Shown: positions 1,625 through 53,286 of the stretch, in pieces
How the letters are laid out: every line of letters starts with the position of its first letter
Numbering within the stretch: position 1 is the stretch's first letter
Source: Prolixibacter sp. NT017
GTDB taxonomy: Bacteria; Bacteroidota; Bacteroidia; Bacteroidales; Prolixibacteraceae
Direction: 5' to 3'
Assembly: GCF_009617875.1 (NCBI RefSeq)
Contig: NZ_BLAV01000001.1
Span: 434,001 to 498,000, forward strand
Length of the DNA: 64,000 nucleotides
Notes under the pieces: model-generated
Seen by the model: only the letters and a program-made list of their open reading frames with translations
Database searches by the model: none
Told to the model about the DNA's origin: nothing
Position numbers and translations under genes: made by a program

Positions 1625-2261
1625 CCGTAAAATTCTGCGCCGTGGAAATTTTTTTTTCACAGCACAAAAATAAATTCTCACGGCATAAAAATTTTTTTTC
1701 ACCGCAGAGAATTTAGCACGGGTTTCGGTTTATTTGGAGACGATCATTTTCGGGCGTTTCAGTATTCTGTGGCCGTGAATTATGATGACACGGGGGACTA
1801 TTCTACCATGTTCAAAAGTATTCCGGTTTTTCGCAAGTCCCAAAAGTCTTTCTGCCGATCACCCCATCACTTTGGCTATTCTCATTGTCACAATAGACAA
1901 GACTGGTCTTATCTAAGTTCCACCTCTCTTTGGTAAAGGATTTCGGCAGCAAGAATCGGAAAAAAAAGATTTGATAAAGAAACTGACTATTGTTGAGGGA
2001 AGATGTCATCAATTAAGGTTGGTCGATCCAACTGAATAACCTTCATTATTCGCGAATAAACTCAGTACTCATTCAAACCATCTGATGCTTAATAACAGTT
2101 ATCAAAACCCCAGTGAAATTCTTGTATATATTTGAGGGAGCATGACAAAGCACAGGACATGAGAAGGGTGAATTAGAAGCAGATTTATTTGGATGGCTGT
2201 TTGTATTGTTTAGATTTGTATAATTTACACTTATTCCGGAAATGGAACTTATGTCGAAAAG
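1625..2261. other. Intergenic region upstream of the HTCS gene
   Basis: No convincing gene. At 1629-1714 there is A/T-rich sequence with several inverted segments (AAATTCTC at 1672-1679 against GAGAATTT at 1707-1714, and long T runs). On the minus strand, about 1730-1800 encodes a short basic tail ending RILKRPKMIVSK and a stop, which might be the remnant end of a lost gene. The last 200 bp presumably hold the HTCS promoter; I could not assign a clear -33/-7 pair. Confidence 0.35.
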
Positions 2262-5200
2262 ATGGGGAAAAGTAAGCTTATCATAGTGAAGGGGTTACTC
2301 TTGATGTTTTTGTTGTTTTCAAGTATAGTCTCGTTTTCTGCCAATGTTCAGTTTCATGATATGAACAAGAAATTTGGCATTTCTTTAAGAGAGACTAATG
2401 AAGTCATGAAGGACAATTATGGTTTCATTTGGGTTTCTTCCAAGATGGGAATTTTAAGACTTGCCGAAGATGATTATCACATTTATAAGCTTCCCTATGA
2501 AACCGCTGATGTCATTAGCGTTAAGCTCGCTTTTAACAAGAAAAAATCTGTTCTTTTTGCCTATACGAACAACGGGCAGATTTTTAAATATAACTCTGTC
2601 TATGACCGTTTTGATTTACTGGTCAATCTTAGTAAAATGATGTCCAACCAGTATTTAAGTGTAAATAATATGCTGGTTAGCGACAACAATGTTATCTGGT
2701 TAGGAACATCGGCGGGGCTTTATCGATATGCTGACGGAAAGCTGGCACAAGTTGGAAAGTACGATACTAATATTAATGGCTTGGAATGGTATACAAGAGA
2801 CAAATTATTTGTTGCTCATCTAAACAAGATCACACTATTGGATACTCATGACGGGGACACAGAGCTGTTTTATAAGGGAATACCTGAAGATATCAATGTT
2901 TCAAAATTGTATTACGATAAAAAATCTCAGAGACTGTGGGTCGGAACTTTGTCTAGCGGGATGTTTTATCTCACCTCTGATAATACAAAAGTATCGAGCC
3001 ATAAAATAAATGGTTTACCTAAACAACCGATTTTGGCTGTTGAGGCGAACTCCGATTCAACCCTATTGCTTGGGATCGATGGACAAGGAATTTGGGAGTT
3101 GAATAAAAATAACGATCAGATTCTTAACGTGTACAAACAAGATGCTGATAATCCAACATCTCTTAATGGAAATGGAGTTTACGATATCTTTTGCGATGAT
3201 TCAAGGAGGGTTTGGGTATGCACCTATAGCGGGGGGCTTTCATATTTTGAGCAGGCAACTCCTCAGGTTGAGAGAGTGGAACATATGATTAATAATCACA
3301 ACTCGCTGGTCGATAATGATGTTAATAGTGTTTGTGAAGATGGAGACCGGAATATTTGGTTTGCAACAAATAATGGGATAAGTCGCTGGGATACAAAAAA
3401 CAATAAGTGGAGTTCTTATTACAAAAACGAGAAAAAACAAGCGCAGGTTTTTCTTTCCCTATCTGAAGATAATCGAGGAAGAATTTGGGCGGGTACTTAT
3501 TCTTCGGGTGTATATGTGTTGGATAGTCGGAATGGGAGGGAACTGGCGCATTATTCCAAAGGGATCAGAGGCTCTAAAATTTCGGTTAATTATGTCTTTA
3601 GTATTCTTAAGGATTCTCAGGGAGATATATGGATTGGTGGGGTTCAGGGGGATTTAATTTGTTACTCGGACAAAGAGGATAAAGTTCGTTCCTATCCCAA
3701 TTTTCCAGTTGATGTTATTAAGGAGCTTTCACCCGGGAAGATTTTACTTGGTTGCACCTATGGATTGTTGATGTTAGACAAACGCACCGGAGAAGCGACC
3801 CGGTTGTTGGATGGATTTCTGGTTTATGATATTCTGGTAAGAGGAGATGTTATATGGCTGTGTACCAGTGGGGATGGATTGGTGTGGTATAACGTCAAAA
3901 CTCATAAGTCAGGCACATTCACTACAAAATCGGGTTTACCATCAAATTTTGTCAACAGCATTTCATATGCTAAAGGCTTTTTGTGGTTAGGTACCGAAAA
4001 TGGATTATGTCGTTTCGATCCTAATGACAATAGTGTGCTTGTGTATCCATCTCGTGTGGCTCTTTCTCATGTATCATTTAATCGGGATGCAAACTATCAA
4101 CTTAGGGATGGTCGATTGATTTGGGGTACGAACCGTGGAGCCGTGATATTCAATCCCAAATCAATACATAGGGTAAACCCCAAAGGAAAAATCTATTTCC
4201 AGGATCTTTTGATTTCGGGGCGTTCAATTCGCGATATACCAAAATTCAAGCTAAAAAGCCCTCTTGATAGTCTGAAATCTATTTCTCTAAAGTATACGCA
4301 GAATACGCTGACTCTTAGTTTGGTCTCAGTAGGTACCTCTGTCGCAGATTCGAAATTCTCGTGGAAACTGGAAGGATTGGATAATCAGTGGAGTACGCCT
4401 TCCGGTAATCATACACTTACTTATGCTAATATTCCGAGTGGAGATTATGCGTTGAAAATCAAGATGTATGATGGTTCAATCTCTCATCTGATTGATGAGC
4501 GGACTATCGTTTTGCATATGATTCCCCCTTTTTGGCAACTTGGCTGGTTTAAGTTTTTGATATTCCTTTTTGTCATGGGAATAACAATAATTGTTTTTGC
4601 ATACTATATCGATAGGCTCAAGAAGCAACACTCCGAAGAAAAAATTCGTTTTTTCACAAATACTGTGCATGATATTCGTACTTCGCTGACTCTTATCGGT
4701 GCACCCATTGAAGAACTGAATAAAGAGTCGAATCTGAGTAAACTTGGACGTTATTATTTAAATCTGGCAACCGAACAAGCCCGCCGTTTATCTTCGGTAG
4801 TTACACAATTAATGGACTTTGAGAAGGTTGATGTTGGAAAAGAGCAACTTAACCTGACGATGACAGATGTAGTGAAAGTGATTCAAAATAGAATCCAGAT
4901 GTTTGAATCACTGGCGAAAAGCAAAGATATCCGTCTTGTCTTCGATTCAAATCAATCGAGCTATGAAGCGGCTTTGGATGAAGTTTTGATTGAGAAAGTT
5001 TTGGATAATCTCTTATCAAATGCAATCAAGTATTCTCATCCCAATTCTGAGGTTCACATTAGTTTGGAATGCAACGATAGTAAATGGAGTGTGGAAGTAA
5101 CAGATCATGGTATTGGTATAAGTAAAAAGGCCCAACGGCAGCTTTTTAAAGAGTTTTACCGGGCAGAGAATGCGATAAACTCAAAAATAGTTGGTTCAGG

Positions 5201-6173
5201 CATCGGGCTTATACTGACCAGGAATTATATTCATATGCATGGCGGCGATATTTTTTGCACTAGCCAGGAAAATACAGGAACTACATTTCAGGTGGTTATT
5301 CCAAAGAAAAAAATATTGCCGGATGAAGAGTCCCTCAGGAAAGGTGAAAGAAGCGAGACCACTGTTTCACCTTTATCTGTGGACAACGAGGAGCTCCAAG
5401 AACCACCTGTTCAGGCTCCGCTGACTAGAATGCGGATTTTGGTGGTTGAGGATAATGATGATTTAAGAGGGTTTTTGAGGAATGCATTTCGGGAACAATT
5501 TGAAGTGCACGATGCTGGCGATGGTGATGAGGCGTGGAGGTTCATTCAGAAGAGCATGCCTGACTTGGTTGTTTCGGATATTATGATGCCTAATATGGAT
5601 GGCTTCGAATTGTGCCAAAAGATGAAGTCAACTTACGAGACTTCTCACATTCCTGTCATTCTTCTTACATCTATGTCTGCAAAAGCGCAGAAGTTGCATG
5701 GTCTGGGACTGGGGGCCGATGATTATTTGACCAAACCATTTGATGTGTCTGTTTTGATACAGAAGATAAAATCAATTGTTCAGAACCGAAATGCAGTAAG
5801 GGAAAAGGCTCTGAAATTAATAAGGAGCGACGAGCAGGAATCTATATTGGCAAATGAGATGAATGATAAGTTTGTAAAACAGATGTTAGAGGTTGTCAGG
5901 GCAAATATTTCCAATACCGAATTCAACAAAGATGAATTTGCATCTGCCATGAACGTGAGTTCATCTCTATTGTACAAGAAGGTTAAATCTCTGACGGATC
6001 AATCTCCCACAGATTTCGTAAAAAGCGTTCGGCTGGATCACGCGTTGGAGCTCTTGCAAGGGGGGCGTCACACAGTCACAGAAATAAGCGAATTATGCGG
6101 ATTCTCCAGTGTCGGATATTTTAGTACAGTATTTAAAAAGCACTTTGGAAAATCTCCGACGGATATATTGTAG
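2262..6173 (+). CDS. Hybrid two-component system sensor/regulator (HTCS)
   Basis: A 1303-residue one-protein signalling system of the kind that controls Bacteroidota PULs. In order it shows a signal peptide (about 1-27), a periplasmic two-propeller sensor built of Reg_prop repeats (recurring IWVGT/FWLGTENGL-like motifs, about 40-640), a Y_Y_Y domain (about 660-750), one membrane segment (about 757-783), a HisKA domain with the phospho-acceptor His803 in the motif HDIRTSLT, and a HATPase_c domain (NLLSNAIKYS, DHGIGI, GSGIGL). A receiver domain follows with phospho-acceptor Asp1106 in SDIMMPNMDG, then a C-terminal AraC-type HTH pair (about 1200-1303). Such proteins bind an oligosaccharide in the periplasm and activate the PUL directly. 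Being beside SusCD and xylanases, it probably senses a xylo-oligosaccharide. The usual Pro of the H-box is Ser here, a minor deviation. Confidence 0.95.
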   Translation: MGKSKLIIVKGLLLMFLLFSSIVSFSANVQFHDMNKKFGISLRETNEVMKDNYGFIWVSSKMGILRLAEDDYHIYKLPYETADVISVKLAFNKKKSVLFAYTNNGQIFKYNSVYDRFDLLVNLSKMMSNQYLSVNNMLVSDNNVIWLGTSAGLYRYADGKLAQVGKYDTNINGLEWYTRDKLFVAHLNKITLLDTHDGDTELFYKGIPEDINVSKLYYDKKSQRLWVGTLSSGMFYLTSDNTKVSSHKINGLPKQPILAVEANSDSTLLLGIDGQGIWELNKNNDQILNVYKQDADNPTSLNGNGVYDIFCDDSRRVWVCTYSGGLSYFEQATPQVERVEHMINNHNSLVDNDVNSVCEDGDRNIWFATNNGISRWDTKNNKWSSYYKNEKKQAQVFLSLSEDNRGRIWAGTYSSGVYVLDSRNGRELAHYSKGIRGSKISVNYVFSILKDSQGDIWIGGVQGDLICYSDKEDKVRSYPNFPVDVIKELSPGKILLGCTYGLLMLDKRTGEATRLLDGFLVYDILVRGDVIWLCTSGDGLVWYNVKTHKSGTFTTKSGLPSNFVNSISYAKGFLWLGTENGLCRFDPNDNSVLVYPSRVALSHVSFNRDANYQLRDGRLIWGTNRGAVIFNPKSIHRVNPKGKIYFQDLLISGRSIRDIPKFKLKSPLDSLKSISLKYTQNTLTLSLVSVGTSVADSKFSWKLEGLDNQWSTPSGNHTLTYANIPSGDYALKIKMYDGSISHLIDERTIVLHMIPPFWQLGWFKFLIFLFVMGITIIVFAYYIDRLKKQHSEEKIRFFTNTVHDIRTSLTLIGAPIEELNKESNLSKLGRYYLNLATEQARRLSSVVTQLMDFEKVDVGKEQLNLTMTDVVKVIQNRIQMFESLAKSKDIRLVFDSNQSSYEAALDEVLIEKVLDNLLSNAIKYSHPNSEVHISLECNDSKWSVEVTDHGIGISKKAQRQLFKEFYRAENAINSKIVGSGIGLILTRNYIHMHGGDIFCTSQENTGTTFQVVIPKKKILPDEESLRKGERSETTVSPLSVDNEELQEPPVQAPLTRMRILVVEDNDDLRGFLRNAFREQFEVHDAGDGDEAWRFIQKSMPDLVVSDIMMPNMDGFELCQKMKSTYETSHIPVILLTSMSAKAQKLHGLGLGADDYLTKPFDVSVLIQKIKSIVQNRNAVREKALKLIRSDEQESILANEMNDKFVKQMLEVVRANISNTEFNKDEFASAMNVSSSLLYKKVKSLTDQSPTDFVKSVRLDHALELLQGGRHTVTEISELCGFSSVGYFSTVFKKHFGKSPTDIL

Positions 6174-25470: not shown

Positions 25471-26448
25471 ATGTCAATGAAAAAATCAAGATACCTGGTT
25501 GAACACATGTATACAGCCGATCCGGCAGTACACGTTTTTAATGGCAAACTGTATATCTACCCTTCACACGACATCGATGCGGGCATTCCTGAGAATGATA
25601 ACGGCGACCATTTTGATATGCGTGACTATCACGTATTTTCAATGGACTCCATTGACGGAGAAGTGACTGACCATGGAGTGGCACTGGATGTAAAAGACAT
25701 CCGGTGGGCCGGAAGACAACTGTGGGATTGTGATGCAGCTTTTAAGAATGGGAAATATTATTTGTACTTTCCGTTGAAGGACAAGACTGATATTTTCCGA
25801 ATCGGCGTCGCTGTGAGTGAGAAACCGGAAGGACCTTTCGTTCCGCTTGACAATCCAATCAGAGGGAGTTATTCGATTGACCCCTGTGTTTTTTGTGACG
25901 ACGATGGTACTCATTACATGTATTTTGGTGGCTTGTGGGGTGGCCAATTACAACGCTACCGCGATAACAAAGCCATTGAATGCGGACAGCTTCCCGATGA
26001 CGAACAGCCTGCATTGCCTTCGCGGGTGGTGAAACTCGATGACGATATGCTCGAATTTGGCGAGGAGCCGAAAGCGGTAATTATACTTGACGAAAACGGA
26101 GAGCCGTTGAAAGCAGGTGATAACGAACGCCGGTTCTTTGAGGCATCGTGGATGCACAAATACAAAGGGAAATACTACTTCTCGTATTCAACGGGTGACA
26201 CTCACAAACTGTGTTATGCAGTTGGTGACAACCCTTACGGTCCTTTTACTTACCAGGGAGTGATTCTTACACCGGTGGTTGGCTGGACAACTCACCATTC
26301 CATTGTGGAGTTTAAAGGCAAGTGGTACCTGTTCTATCACGACAGTGTTCCGTCGGGCGGCAAAACATGGTTGCGAAGCATGAAAGTGATTGAACTGGAA
26401 TATACGAAAGAGGGGAGCATTAAAACGATTGAAGGAATAGAAGATTAG
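25471..26448 (+). CDS. Cytoplasmic GH43 (subfamily 1-like) beta-xylosidase
   Basis: A 325-residue single-domain GH43 without a signal peptide, so cytoplasmic. The three catalytic acids are visible: Asp17 (TADPAVHVF), Asp137 (SIDPCVFCDDDG) and Glu224 (RFFEASWMHKYKGKYY). The block IYPSHDIDAGIPENDNGDHF is typical of subfamily 1 enzymes, whose characterised members are beta-xylosidases or exo-oligoxylanases acting on short xylo-oligosaccharides. With the GPH symporter and GH10 in the same operon it completes a transport-and-hydrolyse path to xylose. An ATG at 25477 is an equally possible start. Confidence 0.9.
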   Translation: MSMKKSRYLVEHMYTADPAVHVFNGKLYIYPSHDIDAGIPENDNGDHFDMRDYHVFSMDSIDGEVTDHGVALDVKDIRWAGRQLWDCDAAFKNGKYYLYFPLKDKTDIFRIGVAVSEKPEGPFVPLDNPIRGSYSIDPCVFCDDDGTHYMYFGGLWGGQLQRYRDNKAIECGQLPDDEQPALPSRVVKLDDDMLEFGEEPKAVIILDENGEPLKAGDNERRFFEASWMHKYKGKYYFSYSTGDTHKLCYAVGDNPYGPFTYQGVILTPVVGWTTHHSIVEFKGKWYLFYHDSVPSGGKTWLRSMKVIELEYTKEGSIKTIEGIED

Positions 26449-31199: not shown

Positions 31200-32561
31200 T
31201 TACCGTTTAAATTGGACCCAGTCAATTTCGACCGGTGAGTTGGATTGTTGTACAACGACCAGGTTGTGAACTCCTTTTTGATAGTTCGAAGCGGGCACAT
31301 CGGTGGTTGCCCATTGGTTTCCTTTGGGAATTTTTACTTCGGACAACAGGGGACCGTCAGGTTTGTCCAACCGTATCTGTATTTTTCCTCCCTGTTGTGA
31401 CAGGGCTCTCACCTGAACCGACTTGAGTTTTTTATTCCCGAAGTCGACCGCATTGTACTTTACCCAGGCGCCTTGGGTATTAAATAGGGTCTTCCAGCCT
31501 TTAAAGGTATCGAGCGAATCGAGGAACGCAACGGATACGCCCTTTCCGCTGATGTGACTGTACCGGTCAATCTGGATTTCCCGGGTTGCCGGGGTTGTTC
31601 CCACTCCGCGTAACGTTGGTGTTACTTTTTGTATGGTTCCGTCAGGATTGAAGAACAGGCTGTCGATACAAACTGACCTGTTCTTATCGAAGTTGGGCGA
31701 CAAGGCATCCTGATGATAGAAAAGATACCATTGATTCTTATATTGAATCATTGATTGATGGTTGGTCCAGCAATGCATTGGCGATTCATCCATGACGACA
31801 CCGGTAACTTTGAATGGCCCCATCGGATTATCACCAATGGCGTATTCCAACCGTTCAATTTTATGTTCTACATGCGGATAAGTCAGGTAGTAAATTCCCT
31901 TTCGTTCGAATAAATAAGGGCCTTCTTTCAATCCTTTTTCAGGAAGGTTTTCAATCTTCTGAGGTTCTGAGGCTAGTTCCAGCATGTTGTCTTTCAGTTT
32001 GGCCACATAAATATTTCCCATGGCCCAGTAGAGATAGGCCTGTCCGTCTTTGTCGATAAATACGTTCGGATCAATTCCATGGACCCCTTCGATTGGCTTT
32101 GCCTGCGGAACATACGGGCCTTCCGGTTTGTCGGCTATAGCCACGCCTATTCCGAAGTTCTTTCTGCCGTTTGGGCCAACCGTTTTTGTATTGGCCGGAA
32201 AATAGAAATAATACTTCCCGTTTCGTTCAATGCAATCGGGCGCCCACATGCTGTAGGACGTTGAGTCGACCCAGGGGACATTGTATTGGCTCACGACGAT
32301 ACCATGATCCGTCCAATCAGTCAGGTTGGAGGATGAAAACACATGATAGTCTTCCATGCAGAACCATTTTTCTCTCAACCCTTTCCCGGGGGGCGTAGGG
32401 ATGTCGTGCGACGGGAAGAGGTATATTTTCCCGTTGAATACTCTTACTGAAGGGTCAGCAGTAAACTGATTACGGATGATTGGATTTTGAGCTTGCGTAT
32501 TGTTCAGGCAAAAGAGTATCAGGATGATTAGTACGGACAATTTGCGATGGTGTTTTTTCAT
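31200..32561 (-). CDS. GH43-CBM6 glycosidase
   Basis: A 453-residue secreted protein (signal ending NNTQAQ). The GH43 propeller covers about 27-320, with base Asp36 (TADPSVRVF), the second Asp in GIDPNVFIDKDG and the acid Glu in KEGPYLFERKG. Residues about 325-453 form a CBM6-like beta-sandwich (KGVSVAFLDSLDTFKGWKTL, then GVHNLVVVQQSNSPVEIDWVQF). GH43-CBM6 enzymes of xylan PULs are usually arabinofuranosidases or xylosidases; the linkage cannot be read from sequence. The active-site lip FPSHDIPTPPGKG differs from the paralogues nearby, so it may have its own specificity. Confidence 0.9.
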   Translation of the reverse strand: MKKHHRKLSVLIILILFCLNNTQAQNPIIRNQFTADPSVRVFNGKIYLFPSHDIPTPPGKGLREKWFCMEDYHVFSSSNLTDWTDHGIVVSQYNVPWVDSTSYSMWAPDCIERNGKYYFYFPANTKTVGPNGRKNFGIGVAIADKPEGPYVPQAKPIEGVHGIDPNVFIDKDGQAYLYWAMGNIYVAKLKDNMLELASEPQKIENLPEKGLKEGPYLFERKGIYYLTYPHVEHKIERLEYAIGDNPMGPFKVTGVVMDESPMHCWTNHQSMIQYKNQWYLFYHQDALSPNFDKNRSVCIDSLFFNPDGTIQKVTPTLRGVGTTPATREIQIDRYSHISGKGVSVAFLDSLDTFKGWKTLFNTQGAWVKYNAVDFGNKKLKSVQVRALSQQGGKIQIRLDKPDGPLLSEVKIPKGNQWATTDVPASNYQKGVHNLVVVQQSNSPVEIDWVQFKR

Positions 32562-46742: not shown

Positions 46743-49202
46743 CTAAAGTTTTACCGATAATTTCTTTCCGGTATAGGTCACGGTTTTGCCGGCACCGTTG
46801 TTGGGCGAAACCAGAATGATTCGAAATTTTCGTTGCCCGAGCATTCCCGGGAAAGTCCCTTTCCGGCTGTTGATGGTTAAAATTTTTCGTGCATTATTCC
46901 AGTTGAAGGTAATGGTCGAATAAATTCCTTTTTCATAATCATAATTGTCGTTTTCATCTTCATATAAGGTGAATTGACCATTAGCGCCGGGATAAACACG
47001 TATTTCCAAGTCGTCCCATTTTTTCTGGGTGGCATACTGTACTTTGGGTCCGAACGGAATGATGCTTCCGGCTTTGATGTACAAAGGAATCTCGTCAATC
47101 TCTGTTTTCTGATTAATTTCCTGACCGCCTTTGTGCTTCTCATTTGTCCAGAAGTCATACCATACAGTTCCGGCAGGTAAATAAACCTTTTTCGATTTTG
47201 ACTGAGTAAAATCAATGGCAGTCGCTTTGGGCTTATTTTCCGTATTATTATTCTTGTTCCACCCGGAGTTTGGATCCGTTTTGACTATCGTTTCGGGTGT
47301 GTATTGGGCATGGACAATCGGGGCTACCAATATTGATTTCCCAAACATGTACTCATTATTCATATTCCTGACTTTTGGATCGTTAAAATCCATCATCAGG
47401 GCCCGCATCATAGTCGACTGGTTGTGTGTGACCTGCCACGCATCGGCGTATATATAAGGTAGAAGGGAATAACGCAGATTTATGGCTTTTGCTATTGCAT
47501 CGTAAACAGGCTCTCCCTTTTTCCCAAATTGATAAATTTCCCTGGGAATATCGGTTCCGTGCGAACGCATCATTGGTGTGAATGCTCCAAACTGCAGCCA
47601 TCGAACGTAGAGCTCCTGGAATAATGGATTTTTTGCTCCCTTACTGCCATTCCAACTTCGGTTATAGGCACCGGCAAAGAAACCGCCGATATCGCAATTC
47701 CAGTAAGGAATACCACTTAAGGAGAAGTTCAGCCCGGCAGGAATTTGATTGCGCAATGATTGCCATGACGAGCTAACATCGCCTGACCAGGTATTGGCAG
47801 CATAACGCTGCTGACCGGCAAATGCCGACCGGGTAAGGATGAACACGCGTTTGGCAGAAGTGACAGCGCGCTGGTGCTTATAAACCCCGCCGACTGTCAT
47901 CAATGGATAGGCATTCCGAACTTTACGGAACGGGCCCAAATAGGTTTTTTCATCCAGGTCGGAAGGTTTGAATTCCAGGTGATCCGGTTCGGTGGAATCC
48001 ATCCACCATCCGTCGATTCCCAGAGAGAAAATACCTTTGTTCGAATACTTCCAGTAAATGTCGCGTGCTTTGGGATTATATGCATCATAAACTCTGACGC
48101 CTGACGGATAGTCCATATTGGGCGGCCACTTTTGAACGCCCGATTCAGGCCAGGTTTTAAAGCTTAAAAGTGCACCTATTTTGTTTAAATCCCGGTAAGG
48201 TTTGGTCATTGGGCCAAACGACGACCAAATGGAGATAATCATGTGTGCGTTCATACTGTGCACATCATCCACCATTTTTTGTGGATTGTAGTACTCCGTA
48301 TTCAGGAACTCCATGGCATTCCACAGGTAATTGTTGCCCCAATACTGCCAGTCCTGTATAATTCCATCCAACGGGACGCCTAACTCACGGTATTTCCTGA
48401 CTACTCCAATCAGTTCGTCCTGGCTTTTGTACCGTTCCTTACTTTGCCAATAGCCAAATGTCCACAAAGGGAACATAGGAGCTTGCCCGGTCAGGTCACG
48501 CATACGTGCGATTGCTCCGTCGGGACTATTGCCGTACATAAAATAGTAGTCAACACAATTACCTACGTCTGATTTGAAGAATGTCCTTTCCTGGTTGTCA
48601 GAAAAGGTGGTTGGAGAGTAGTTATCCCAAAACATTCCATAGCCTTTGTCCGACACGAAAAAGGGGACATAATCGTCAGTATTTCCCTGTATCATGTGTA
48701 GTTTCAGGTTTCGCTGAACCAGTCTTCCTTGCTGCTGCTGCCCCAGCCCATAAATGTCTTCGTTCTTATCCAGAACAAATGCCTGGTATACATTGTATGT
48801 TTTTTCCCCGGCATCGTTGTAGTTGGTGAATTTAACGCCCGACTTTTCTTCCTTTAGCAGCGGTTTCCCTGATGAAGTAGAAAATTCAACCTGTCCGCTG
48901 GATAAATTCAGACTGATCTGGAGCTTCTTACTTTTAAGTAAGAGGTTGCCACCTGACTGCCTGACCCGAAAATCTGTTTTTTGTGGCTTTTCAATAACCG
49001 AAAGGCTTTTTTTTGTAAAGGTTGTTCCTGCCGGCCATTTTAATATCCGTACCGTTGAAGGAGAATAAAACTGGATTTCAATCCCTACAGATGCAACCAC
49101 CGTACGGATCCCGGTATCTGTTTTCTGATAGGATTGTCCTTTGGCAGTCATGCTCATAGCAAGAACCAGGGACATCAATATGCCAGTGCGTAATAACTTC
49201 AT
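46743..49202 (-). CDS. GH31 alpha-xylosidase-like enzyme without PA14
   Basis: An 819-residue secreted GH31 (signal MKLLRTGILMSLVLAMSMTAKGQ). The nucleophile is Asp402 in WWMDSTEPDH and the acid/base Asp475 in WSGDVSSSW. It has no PA14 insert, and the loop after the acid/base differs from the other GH31 (VSSSWQSLRNQ against IGGTWDSFRRQ), so the two probably act on different side chains. The region FAPIVHAQYTPE to NENKPKATAID is an insert in the post-barrel domain. Candidate activities are alpha-xylosidase or alpha-glucosidase. It is 21 bp downstream of the GH43-CBM6 gene. Confidence 0.9.
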   Translation of the reverse strand: MKLLRTGILMSLVLAMSMTAKGQSYQKTDTGIRTVVASVGIEIQFYSPSTVRILKWPAGTTFTKKSLSVIEKPQKTDFRVRQSGGNLLLKSKKLQISLNLSSGQVEFSTSSGKPLLKEEKSGVKFTNYNDAGEKTYNVYQAFVLDKNEDIYGLGQQQQGRLVQRNLKLHMIQGNTDDYVPFFVSDKGYGMFWDNYSPTTFSDNQERTFFKSDVGNCVDYYFMYGNSPDGAIARMRDLTGQAPMFPLWTFGYWQSKERYKSQDELIGVVRKYRELGVPLDGIIQDWQYWGNNYLWNAMEFLNTEYYNPQKMVDDVHSMNAHMIISIWSSFGPMTKPYRDLNKIGALLSFKTWPESGVQKWPPNMDYPSGVRVYDAYNPKARDIYWKYSNKGIFSLGIDGWWMDSTEPDHLEFKPSDLDEKTYLGPFRKVRNAYPLMTVGGVYKHQRAVTSAKRVFILTRSAFAGQQRYAANTWSGDVSSSWQSLRNQIPAGLNFSLSGIPYWNCDIGGFFAGAYNRSWNGSKGAKNPLFQELYVRWLQFGAFTPMMRSHGTDIPREIYQFGKKGEPVYDAIAKAINLRYSLLPYIYADAWQVTHNQSTMMRALMMDFNDPKVRNMNNEYMFGKSILVAPIVHAQYTPETIVKTDPNSGWNKNNNTENKPKATAIDFTQSKSKKVYLPAGTVWYDFWTNEKHKGGQEINQKTEIDEIPLYIKAGSIIPFGPKVQYATQKKWDDLEIRVYPGANGQFTLYEDENDNYDYEKGIYSTITFNWNNARKILTINSRKGTFPGMLGQRKFRIILVSPNNGAGKTVTYTGKKLSVKL

Positions 49203-49223
49203 TTTATCAATTTTTAATTCAGT

Positions 49224-50555
49224 TTATTGTGCCTTGAACTTCCACCAGTCGAAGTTGAATAAATTGCCTTGAGCACCTTTGAAAACAAAGAAGAGATCAT
49301 GAACCCCCTTTACTTTTTTCACCTTGCAGGATTGGAGCGACCATTCCTGCCATCCGCCGGTATCTTTGACAGGACACACACCCAATAACGTACCGGTTTC
49401 ACTATCAAGATGAATTTCAATTTTACCTCCTTTGGAAGCAGACGCGACGCCGGCTTCGAATGACTTAGCGCCTTTTTGAAAATCGACACCCTGTACCTTA
49501 ATGTAATTGCCACTATCGACGTCTGTTACGTAAACTCCCACCTTGCTGTTCTGCCTTGTTTTCAGACCGTGACTCCAGGCAATGGTTTCGGCTTCCACTC
49601 TTTGATACGGATCTACCGTTCCTAATCTTTTGGGACCTGTTGCTGACCAATACGGTAGTTTTTGGATGATCCCGTCATCGTTGTAGGTCATTTGATCGAC
49701 CGACACGGAACGACGCTCGAAATGTTTTTGGGTGGTCTCTTTGAGTAGATCATAATTCAGGCCGAAACAATACGAATTTCCTTTGTAGTCAATAATTCCG
49801 GGATGGTTTCCCCGGGACTTCGGTGTCACGTCCATGATCATCCCTTTATATTCCCAGGGACCTGTGGGCGAATCACTCATTGCATAGCCAATGGCTTCCG
49901 GACAACAGGTGGAGGCGTAGGCCAGGTAGTAATGTCCGCTTCGCTTCCAAACCCACGGACCTTCCTGATAATTTTGAGGCTTGGATGCTACCTTGACGAT
50001 TTCGCCGGAGTAGGAAATCATATCTTTATTTAGTTTCACGTAGTAAAGATCAGGGTTTCCCCAATATAAATAAGCCTGTCCATCGTCGTCAATCAAAACG
50101 GTCGGATCAATATCATTCCAGATGTGGTCATCGTTGATCAACCTCGTTCCCAGCGGATCTTTAAAGGGGCCGTACGGACTGTCGGAAACCAAAACACCAA
50201 TTCCACCGCCGTGCATCGGGCAATAGAGGTAGAACTTTCCGTTCCGCGCTACACATTGCGGAGCCCAGGCACCATTATCCTGCCTGGCCCAGCTAAAATT
50301 CTTCAATGAGGCTACAATTCCGTGGTCGGTCCAGTTTACCATATCCGTAGAGGTATAGAGCAACCAGTTGAGCATCTTGAAACCGGTCGCATCGTCTTCA
50401 TCATGAGTTGTATAAAGGAATACGGTGTCGTTATAGACCATGGGAGCCGGGTCGGCGGTATATTTGGTTTGGATAATGGGGTTCTGTGCCGTAGCGGTAA
50501 AAGTGATTGTCAGCAAGGCTGACAATGTCGTAAGTATTCGGGATGAAATTTTCAT
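49224..50555 (-). CDS. GH43-CBM6 glycosidase
   Basis: A 443-residue secreted enzyme (signal to about 24, ending FTATAQ). Catalytic pattern: Asp35 (TADPAPMVY), DIDPTVLIDDDGQAYLYWG, and the acid Glu in YQEGPWVWKRSGHYYL. CBM6-like domain at about 315-443 (RVEAETIAW, KGAKSFEAGVASASKGGKIE, DLFFVFKGAQGNLFNFDWW). Its CBM6 is very like that of the adjacent gene at 50588, including a 42-nt identical stretch at the DNA level. It has the plain five-blade layout that the neighbour has lost by duplication. Likely an arabinofuranosidase or xylosidase on arabinoxylan. Confidence 0.92.
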   Translation of the reverse strand: MKISSRILTTLSALLTITFTATAQNPIIQTKYTADPAPMVYNDTVFLYTTHDEDDATGFKMLNWLLYTSTDMVNWTDHGIVASLKNFSWARQDNGAWAPQCVARNGKFYLYCPMHGGGIGVLVSDSPYGPFKDPLGTRLINDDHIWNDIDPTVLIDDDGQAYLYWGNPDLYYVKLNKDMISYSGEIVKVASKPQNYQEGPWVWKRSGHYYLAYASTCCPEAIGYAMSDSPTGPWEYKGMIMDVTPKSRGNHPGIIDYKGNSYCFGLNYDLLKETTQKHFERRSVSVDQMTYNDDGIIQKLPYWSATGPKRLGTVDPYQRVEAETIAWSHGLKTRQNSKVGVYVTDVDSGNYIKVQGVDFQKGAKSFEAGVASASKGGKIEIHLDSETGTLLGVCPVKDTGGWQEWSLQSCKVKKVKGVHDLFFVFKGAQGNLFNFDWWKFKAQ

Positions 50556-50587
50556 TGTTGTCGATTAAGCTGTTTTTATTTTTAAAG

Positions 50588-52375
50588 TTATCGGGCGTTG
50601 TGTGAATGTAGTTGCCACCAGTCGAAGTTGAATAAATTGCCTTGAGCACCTTTGAATACAAAAAATAGATCATGTACTCCTTTCACATTTTTTACACCAC
50701 AGGATTGAATATCCCAGTGTTGCCATCCGCCGGTGTTTTTGACAGGGCATGCACCCAATAGGGCACCGGTTACACTATCGAGGTGAATTTCAATTTTGCC
50801 TCCTGTGGAAGCAGATGCGACGCTGGCTTCGAACGACCCGGCTCCCTTGCCAAAATCGACACTGCGTACTTTAATATAGTCACCATTGTCGATATCGGTT
50901 ACATAAATGCCGGTAATACTGTCTGAAGCTGTTTCTACACCTTCTTCCCATGCGATTGTTTCGGCTTGCTGGCGGATATACGGATTCAGGTTGGCAACTC
51001 CTTTCACGACTCCCGCTTTTGTCGCGGCAATTCTCGGAATGGTGCCATCCGGATTGTATTTAAATTCTTCAACACAAACAGAACGGTCGAAACCGCCGCC
51101 ACCAGGTAAGGCTCCATCATGATAAAAGAGGAACGATTTCCCTTTATAGTCAATAATTCCGGGATGATTGGTGAAAGCACCACCTTTGCCAATGACCGGC
51201 ATGATTGTATCCTGGTATACCCATGGCCCGGTCTGGCCTGTACTGGTAGAGTAGGCCAAATGTTCAGGTACGCCACCGGCCGGATATATCAGATAATACA
51301 AGCCATTTCGTTTGTAGAACCATGGTCCTTCCTCATAGGTCGTAAATCGTTTGCCGGTGCTGTTTACTGTTCTTTTTATTTTGGAAACAAACCAATCTTT
51401 TTTGTCCGAGGGAATTGGCCTGATACCGACCTTTTGATCGTACGAACTCATATCACTGTTAAGCTTTACATACCAAAGCTTTGAATTTCCCCAGGTTAAA
51501 TAGGGTTGTTTGGCGTCGTTAAAGACAATTGTCGGGTTAATGTTCCCTTTACCGCAATGTTCCGAAATCAAGGGTTTACCAAGGACATCCGTGAACGGGC
51601 CGATGGCTTTATCACCGACGGCCACGCCAATAACTTTTTTATTTGTTCGCTTATCGATTGCGCTTACATACCAATAGTACTTGTTGCCGGAAGTGTTTTT
51701 AACGGTATGCGATGCCAGCCCGTTAATTGATTTAGCCCACTTAAAAGTTTTTTTAGCGTTGATAATCCTGAGTTTAAAACTCTTTGCAGTGAGCGGAACT
51801 TTCACAATTCCCACATTCTTGTCATACGAAATCATGTCTTTATTGAGCTTGACATAGTAAAGCTGCGGATTTCCCCAGTACAGATAGGCTTGTCCATCAT
51901 CGTCGATATACACGGTAGGATCAATATCTCCCCAGCCGGTGGTCACAAGCAGTTTGCCAAGTGCATCAACAAAGGGGCCTGTTGGCCTGTCGGATACAGC
52001 AACGCCAATTGCCATGCCTTTACCATTGTCTTGATTCATGGGTACATACCAATAAAATTTGCCATTTCGTTCGATACACTGTCCTGCCCATGCATCCTTT
52101 TTAGCCCATTTGAACTTTTTGAGTGACAATGGTGAACCATGGTCTGTCCAGTTAACCATGTCGGTGGTGGAATAAACATGCCAGTTCTTCATGGTGAACC
52201 AGTTGGAGCCATCTTCGTCATGCCCCGTATATAAGTATACTGTATCGTTATAGACCATTGGTGCCGGATCGGCTGTATAAATGGTCTGAATGATTGGGTT
52301 TTGAGCATGTCCTGCAAAAGGCGTTATCAATAAGGACAGTAATATTATAGATATGATTTTTGAAAAATTCTTCAT
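50588..52375 (-). CDS. GH43-CBM6 with internally duplicated half-propeller
   Basis: A 595-residue secreted protein (signal ending FAGHAQ). The GH43 domain is about 120 residues longer than its neighbour's because a segment occurs twice: residues about 88-199 (FKWAKKD..., YWYVPM, GDIDPTVYIDDDGQAYLYWG, YVKLNKDMISYD) and about 211-325 (FKWAKS..., YWYVSA, GNINPTIVFNDAKQPYLTWG, YVKLNSDMSSYD). The base Asp36, the second Asp152 (first copy) and the acid Glu349 (YEEGPW) are all kept. The equivalent of Asp152 in the second copy is Asn280, so that copy is non-catalytic. A CBM6-like domain ends the protein. It may have extra blades or a new substrate platform. Confidence 0.92.
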   Translation of the reverse strand: MKNFSKIISIILLSLLITPFAGHAQNPIIQTIYTADPAPMVYNDTVYLYTGHDEDGSNWFTMKNWHVYSTTDMVNWTDHGSPLSLKKFKWAKKDAWAGQCIERNGKFYWYVPMNQDNGKGMAIGVAVSDRPTGPFVDALGKLLVTTGWGDIDPTVYIDDDGQAYLYWGNPQLYYVKLNKDMISYDKNVGIVKVPLTAKSFKLRIINAKKTFKWAKSINGLASHTVKNTSGNKYYWYVSAIDKRTNKKVIGVAVGDKAIGPFTDVLGKPLISEHCGKGNINPTIVFNDAKQPYLTWGNSKLWYVKLNSDMSSYDQKVGIRPIPSDKKDWFVSKIKRTVNSTGKRFTTYEEGPWFYKRNGLYYLIYPAGGVPEHLAYSTSTGQTGPWVYQDTIMPVIGKGGAFTNHPGIIDYKGKSFLFYHDGALPGGGGFDRSVCVEEFKYNPDGTIPRIAATKAGVVKGVANLNPYIRQQAETIAWEEGVETASDSITGIYVTDIDNGDYIKVRSVDFGKGAGSFEASVASASTGGKIEIHLDSVTGALLGACPVKNTGGWQHWDIQSCGVKNVKGVHDLFFVFKGAQGNLFNFDWWQLHSHNAR

Positions 52376-52431: not shown

Positions 52432-53286
<855 letters not shown>

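Follow-up and report, generated by a model that had tools for sequence, protein, structure and literature searches.

The window, the whole stretch of 64,000 nucleotides of Prolixibacter sp. NT017 that was analyzed, carries on its reverse strand a gene encoding a 595-residue protein with a GH43 domain followed by a CBM6 module. The initial annotation had described the product as a GH43 enzyme, and this assignment was borne out by the Pfam profile PF04616, which matched with 202.7 bits against a cut-off of 32.2 (E = 1e-59, split into two stretches), and by the presence of the triad Asp36, Asp152, and Glu349. The CBM6 profile PF03422 matched residues 470–590 with 117.3 bits. GH43 enzymes are five-bladed β-propellers that hydrolyze xylosides or arabinofuranosides with inversion, and from family knowledge we take Asp36 to be the catalytic base, Asp152 the modulator, and Glu349 the general acid. 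The three residues, already reported as intact, were invariant in all 12 proteins of alignment A1 (D13, D129, and E326 in the mature protein, in which residue n corresponds to n + 23 of the full-length chain). The N-terminus looks, by eye, like a signal peptide, and the protein is probably a secreted xylosidase or arabinofuranosidase. The features, with the evidence for each, are as follows:

50588–52375, reverse strand: GH43-CBM6 protein with duplicated blades 2–3, 595 residues (open reading frame and Pfam)
52121–52300, reverse strand: blade 1 region, residues 26–85, with Asp36 at 52268–52270 (model strands E11-19, E22-30, and E39-47; D36 in 12/12)
51782–52120, reverse strand: copy 1, that is blades 2–3, residues 86–198, with Asp152 at 51920–51922 (repeat alignment; D152 in 12/12)
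51398–51751, reverse strand: copy 2, that is blades 2'–3', residues 209–326, with Asn280 at 51536–51538 replacing Asp152 (repeat alignment; N280 in 5/5; clade support 100/100)
51344–51397, reverse strand: exit linker, residues 327–344, up to Glu349 (model helix; DKKDWF in 5/5)
50996–51343, reverse strand: blades 4–5, residues 345–460, with Glu349 at 51329–51331 near the start (model strands; E349 in 12/12)
50606–50968, reverse strand: CBM6, residues 470–590 (PF03422, E = 6.6e-34)
49224–50555, reverse strand: tandem GH43-CBM6 paralogue without the insert, 443 residues, used as comparator (Pfam and local alignment)

Within the window, the gene is surrounded by a GH3 gene, two GH31 genes, further GH43 genes, a GH95, an α-galactosidase-like gene, several esterases, and a LacI-type regulator. 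This setting fits a function in hemicellulose use. The region 25471–57631 is a dense hemicellulose cluster in which PF04616 was found in six proteins (starting at 31200, 34334, 35971, 49224, 50588, and 55913), with a seventh GH43-like ORF at 25471 detected by BLAST only. A SASA gene (52432–53277) lies directly upstream of the insert-bearing GH43 gene and is separate from it. In a genome of the same family (G004), a 599-residue frame (L018:625-2421) is, by eye, an apparent fusion of a SASA-like esterase and a GH43.

Duplication of blades 2 and 3

The best local alignment paired residues 86–198 with residues 209–326, with 54 identities in 113 aligned pairs and a BLOSUM62 score of 252. Chance similarity of the two copies was ruled out, as 2000 shuffles gave a mean score of 32.0 (s.d. 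5.4) and a maximum of 65. The initial annotation had placed the repeats at residues 88–199 and 211–325, within a few residues of these bounds, and the two motif changes that it had listed proved correct in the repeat alignment. DIDPT (150–154) corresponds to NINPT (278–282), with Asn280 of copy 2 facing Asp152 of copy 1, and DDDG (158–161) became NDAK (286–289) in copy 2 of the window protein. Moreover, Trp96 of copy 1 is replaced by Leu220 in four of the five insert-bearing proteins presented below. As these active-site residues are changed, copy 2 should hydrolyze nothing. Cys100 of copy 1 and Cys274 of copy 2, at positions that are not equivalent in the repeat, are each invariant in the five proteins.

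At the DNA level, a 21-nt repeat is found at 51731–51751 and 52100–52120, at the start of copy 2 and of copy 1; its two occurrences are 81% identical and 369 nt (123 codons) apart. A second repeat family, of 111 nt, has one site in the neighboring gene and one in each copy, the latter being 61% and 78% identical to that of the neighbor. Codon identity between the copies amounts to 61% at position 1, 66% at position 2, and 36% at position 3. The duplication was taken as old because of the low identity at third positions, which also rules out a recent event.

The neighboring paralogue (49224–50555) matched residues 81–200, covering copy 1, with 74 of 103 positions identical, and residues 201–341, covering copy 2, with 48 of 119 (best local matches). 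These alignments confirmed that it has no insert, as had been noted from the reading frames. The proposal of an in-frame internal duplication of half of the propeller, the unit being blades 2–3, is supported.

Occurrence, history, and conservation of the insert

A family search for the same insertion, suggested at the outset as a check, found it in four other genomes. A genome-contig collection of 84,980 species was scanned with six short patterns, all drawn from one protein, with which distant carriers would escape, and relatives of the insert were retrieved at six loci. Four carry the insert, namely those of Prolixibacter bellariivorans (L057), a Paludibacter MAG (L058), Bacteroides luti (L059), and Bacteroidales UBA1309 (L060), making five insert-bearing proteins with that of the window; the other two (L061 and L062) encode GH43 proteins without it. 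One genome of the same genus, G001, evidently P. bellariivorans, carries a protein with 95% identity over residues 1–588. The GH43 protein at L062:2006-3064, from a MAG contig labelled Roseburia (Bacillota), pairs with a Flectobacillus MAG protein (100/99), and this contig may be misbinned.

The insert architecture is rare. Among 140 genomes of the family, matches above the ordinary GH43 level were found only in the window genome (1.9e-109) and in G001 (4.9e-104), the next best match, to a 453-residue frame, being 4.2e-26. Two other genomes of the genus (G002 and G003) gave no match at the level of the insert, which leaves two carriers among the four genomes of the genus searched. A single carrier, always the window genome, was found in each of the samples of the order (393 genomes), the phylum (395), and the class (395), with at most nine candidates per genome scored among the matches listed. 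A scan of viral contigs with alignment A2 gave 62 pattern matches with no relative among them. The four other carriers ruled out a private feature of the window genome. They also refute an assembly or annotation artefact, in favor of which nothing was seen, since G001 and three genomes outside the genus share the architecture independently; moreover, the window genome is a single contig.

When 52 half-propeller segments were placed in a tree, all five second copies grouped in a single clade (100/100), which fits a single origin. A 53rd segment, from the truncated copy of the window gene in L003, was left out, and five of the 53 proteins listed (L010, L019, L022, L026, and the window's ORF at 25471) are not represented, their matches being too short to yield a segment. 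The copy 1 segments did not form one clade (3 changes). Copy 1 of B. luti was placed among five proteins lacking the insert (99/96), and its Paludibacter counterpart (L058:3422-6579) fell inside a 20-member group that includes tandem insert-less paralogues (99/91), which suggests gene conversion between adjacent genes. A second tree, of the C-terminal half, likewise showed insert-bearing and insert-less proteins interleaved (3 changes, at least 2 of them forced); it was built from 34 hand-chosen proteins out of 53, the 19 omitted being distant relatives, near-duplicates of retained members, and the L003 fragment. The mixed placement in both trees indicates that loss, transfer, or recombination of the insert followed its origin. 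A single origin could account for it if the insert was later lost or transferred, or if paralogues converted copy 1. Fusion of copy 2 from another GH43 seems less likely; the copy 2 clade has a long branch (0.87) and sits at an open fork of the tree, but the best matches of copy 2 beyond this clade are copy 1 and same-group proteins that lack the insert.

The order insert-bearing GH43, GH43, GH31 is common to the window (46743–52375) and to Paludibacter (L058:3422-8489), with identities of 74, 69, and 65%, the Paludibacter GH31 being cut by the end of the locus. This block may have moved as a unit. In B. luti, the gene is flanked on one side by a relative of the large window ORF 2214–6170 (59%) and on the other by a carboxylesterase relative (73%); a GH3 relative (78%) follows further along.

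We then consider how copy 2 was kept. NINPT is present in the five insert-bearing proteins, and the residue corresponding to Asp152 of their copy 1 is an Asp in all five, in agreement with the loss of the catalytic-type Asp from copy 2 that had been proposed from the window protein. Several residues are invariant in copy 2 and different or variable in copy 1, such as S238-A239-I240-D241-K242, N280, and T294, and the DKKDWF motif (324–329) that closes copy 2 is invariant in 5/5. Such residues argue for a specific role. With the window/P. bellariivorans pair set aside, the five proteins have mean pairwise identities of 0.74 in copy 1 and 0.71 in copy 2, next to 0.72 in blade 1, 0.76 in blades 4–5, and 0.67 in CBM6; copy 2 is thus almost as well conserved as copy 1. 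Between the window and P. bellariivorans, dN/dS is 0.12 for blade 1, 0.07 for copy 1, about 0.13 for copy 2, 0.08 for blades 4–5, and 0.18 for CBM6. By these identities and ratios, copy 2 is under purifying selection, approximately as strict as that on blade 1 and less strict than that on copy 1 and blades 4–5, and is maintained by it. The description of the duplication as tolerated and then diverged must therefore be corrected, given that the copy 2 clade (100/100) spans several genera and that copy 2 is under this selection. The insert is probably useful to its carriers, as it is kept in related enzymes of other bacteria.

Predicted structure and candidate roles of copy 2

The mature protein was modelled with AlphaFold2 at a mean pLDDT of 78.0 (70.5–78.0 over five models) and a pTM of 0.55. 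In mature numbering, copy 1 shows strands at 76–80, 83–91, 98–105, 121–124, 131–134, 140–144, 149–154, and 166–169, and copy 2 at 191–204, 209–218, 224–231, 259–262, 268–272, and 278–282. Copy 2 thus repeats six of the eight strands of copy 1, the counterparts of 121–124 and 166–169 being one- or two-residue bridges. Helices at 174–187 and 300–312 flank copy 2, and the exit linker (327–344) holds most of the second one (323–335 in full-length numbering). From this strand pattern, the predicted order of blades along the chain is 1-2-3-(2'-3')-4-5.

Within the full chain, 10-residue blocks of copy 2 had a pLDDT of 72–93, and the entry helix one of about 39–67. The low values of this helix and the pTM of 0.55 make the placement of the module unsure. 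When copy 2 was modelled alone with a 5-row alignment, pLDDT fell to 44.6 and pTM to 0.40. An alignment of five sequences may be too shallow, the isolated copy may fail to fold by itself and need the chain or a partner, or copy 1 may lend copy 2 its confidence within the full chain. The structure prediction called for in the initial annotation recovered six strands of the repeat in the full chain, and the isolated copy was not predicted with confidence.

Foldseek aligned the model to the five-bladed GH43 structures 3qed, 3qee, and 3qef with a target TM of 0.85–0.88 and an rmsd of 3.3 Å, and to 4nov with 0.85 and 4.9 Å. These alignments occupy 435–446 columns for targets of 296–306 residues, an excess of about the length of the insert. 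Weaker matches were obtained with 5a8c and 3qz4 (TM 0.81, 3.9–4.1 Å) and 5a8d (0.74, 5.8 Å). The poorest matches to single-domain GH43 entries (4mlg, 5glk/5gll, and chains of 6xn0/6xn1/6xn2) had a TM of 0.66–0.71 and an rmsd of 14–16 Å, which we read, in alignments that come without a residue mapping, as straying into copy 2 or CBM6. The whole-chain match to 8hcj had an rmsd of 14 Å, and here CBM6 or the insert is probably positioned differently. For comparison, crude toy rings were superposed: five contiguous blades of a seven-blade ring on a five-blade ring gave a TM of 0.67–0.70 and an rmsd of 5.8–6.6 Å, and a six-blade ring 0.82 and 3.7 Å. A half-propeller looped out of the ring near the active site is favored over a seven-bladed ring because of the matches at TM 0.85–0.88, and overall the prediction does not look like a regular seven-bladed ring, with blades counted from alignments. 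Of the two structural options in the initial annotation, the prediction therefore leans to a side module or platform and away from an enlarged propeller. Identity to 8hcj in Foldseek was 41–42% of 571–572 columns, if columns are counted; copy 1 in the ring corresponds to 245 identities by phmmer and copy 2 in the ring to about 222, and this weakly suggests copy 1 as the slightly better fit.

We tentatively favor, at somewhat less than an even chance, a duplicated half-propeller that is looped out from an intact five-bladed GH43 domain and has a role in shaping substrate binding. In this reading, blades 2 and 3 (~123 codons) were duplicated in tandem and in frame in an ancestor, and the second half-propeller came to lie in the link from blade 3 to blade 4. 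Blade 1, copy 1, and blades 4–5 would then form an ordinary five-bladed catalytic propeller with D36, D152, and E349, and copy 2 would be looped out as a two-bladed, non-catalytic module. In propellers, the connection from the outermost strand of one blade to the innermost strand of the following blade lies on the face that bears the GH43 catalytic residues, which are located where the innermost strands begin. The chain rejoins the sequence common with 8hcj at ~342, some seven residues ahead of E349. From the position of the insertion in the blade 3–4 connection and from this rejoining point, we infer that the module lies on the active-site face, at the rim of the active site. Its most likely role would be to shape access and binding of a branched xylan-type substrate.

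The open-edged two-bladed half may instead be an oligomerization module that pairs across chains into a composite propeller or a dimer, much as lectin monomers with few blades jointly form a propeller; we regard this explanation as unlikely. By eye, copy 2 retains most of the hydrophobic positions invariant in copy 1, and its pLDDT of 45 in isolation is as expected if the edges need a partner. The monomer of the Ralstonia solanacearum lectin RSL has two blades. The trimeric lectin is described as assembling into one β-propeller (PMC9668655). However, the insert could just as well pack against the chain that carries it, and several hydrophobic residues of copy 1 were lost in copy 2 (I157 to F/T/V/R, Y166 to T, V191 to a polar residue, and L195 to S/A). 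Closure of the chain as one enlarged seven-bladed ring, 1-2-3-2'-3'-4-5, with a wider central pocket appears improbable. The order of the sequence permits it, both copies mostly have high pLDDT in the full-length model whereas copy 2 alone is low, and the poorest GH43 matches lie in the TM range of the toy ring, although their rmsd does not. On the other hand, 3qed, 3qee, 3qef, and 4nov fit better (3.3–4.9 Å) than the toy, and widening would part D152 from E349, yet both are invariant. Given the values of the crude six-blade toy, the ring may be mildly distorted.

It is likewise improbable, in our estimation, that the insert is a relic, neutral or nearly so, that is tolerated and does nothing beyond leaving the fold undisturbed. 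A relic would be in line with the rarity of the insert (1/393 genomes of the order, 1/395 of the phylum, and 1/395 of the class, the window genome each time, and 2/4 of the genus) and with the intermixing of carriers and insert-less proteins in the C-terminal-half tree, so that the insert may have been lost several times. Nevertheless, the duplication is old, with third positions at 36%, and yet dN/dS is 0.13 versus 0.07–0.12 in the catalytic parts, and copy 2 has its own invariant residues in 5/5. Copy 2 might also be an assembly device, in which the two-blade units of neighboring chains complete a composite propeller and assembly or glycan binding at this propeller is transmitted to the Glu349 active site; transmission is proposed because the unit rejoins the catalytic fold ~7 residues before this residue. 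We consider this a long shot. If true, a glycosidase would have made an oligomerization or regulatory domain from its own catalytic fold.

The number of blades is normally fixed in enzymatic propellers because the active site sits at the axis. Here, the sequence points to a working glycosidase in which two of five blades are duplicated, and the altered copy was then conserved across genera. The insert-less close relatives, such as L039, L041, and L042 (67–79% identical in shared segments), make it possible to test cleanly, in natural proteins, how partial duplications of a propeller persist, whether looped out, swapped, or paired between chains. The duplication may also represent a novel route to a changed substrate range within the large GH43 family.

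Comparison with known systems

In the open-access titles and abstract openings searched, no conserved half-propeller duplication was described for GH43 or other propeller glycosidases. The kind of enzyme, GH43-CBM6, is already known, and the conserved duplication of half of its propeller appears undescribed within the open-access literature searched. The likeness to RSL is an analogy only: its propeller is completed between chains (PMC9668655), but it is a lectin and not an enzyme insert, and it had no kinship to the window protein by any test used here.

By sequence, the nearest solved relatives of the window protein are 8hcj, a GH43 xylan 1,4-β-xylosidase of Pseudopedobacter saltans, and 9x3m, which has the same molecule name. 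They have the same GH43-CBM6 layout, and 8hcj shares 245 identities with the window protein by phmmer, summed over both matched stretches. Both lack the insert, the two stretches skipping query residues ~208 to ~342. Xsa43E of Butyrivibrio proteoclasticus (4nov) also matched in two stretches (phmmer E = 1.9e-107), and its chain of 345 residues is too short for the insert plus CBM6. Among 32 distinct PDB sequences found by phmmer, the closest matched in two stretches around the insert, and none had a best stretch spanning the insert with both flanks. The endo-arabinanases 2x8f, 2x8t, 4cot, and 2x8s showed a weak stretch over residues 12–278, which reaches into copy 2.

The window protein may belong to GH43 subfamily 29. 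This idea is suggested by a similar module order in two R. cellulolyticum enzymes, GH43_29-1231 and GH43_29-1235, arranged as signal-GH43_29-CBM6 (PMC6556953). In the available part of that paper, a half-propeller duplication is not mentioned for these enzymes. The order of modules is the same as in the window protein, but the R. cellulolyticum enzymes also carry a dockerin. From wheat arabinoxylan, -1231 is reported to give xylose and -1235 xylose with about 20% arabinose (PMC6556953).
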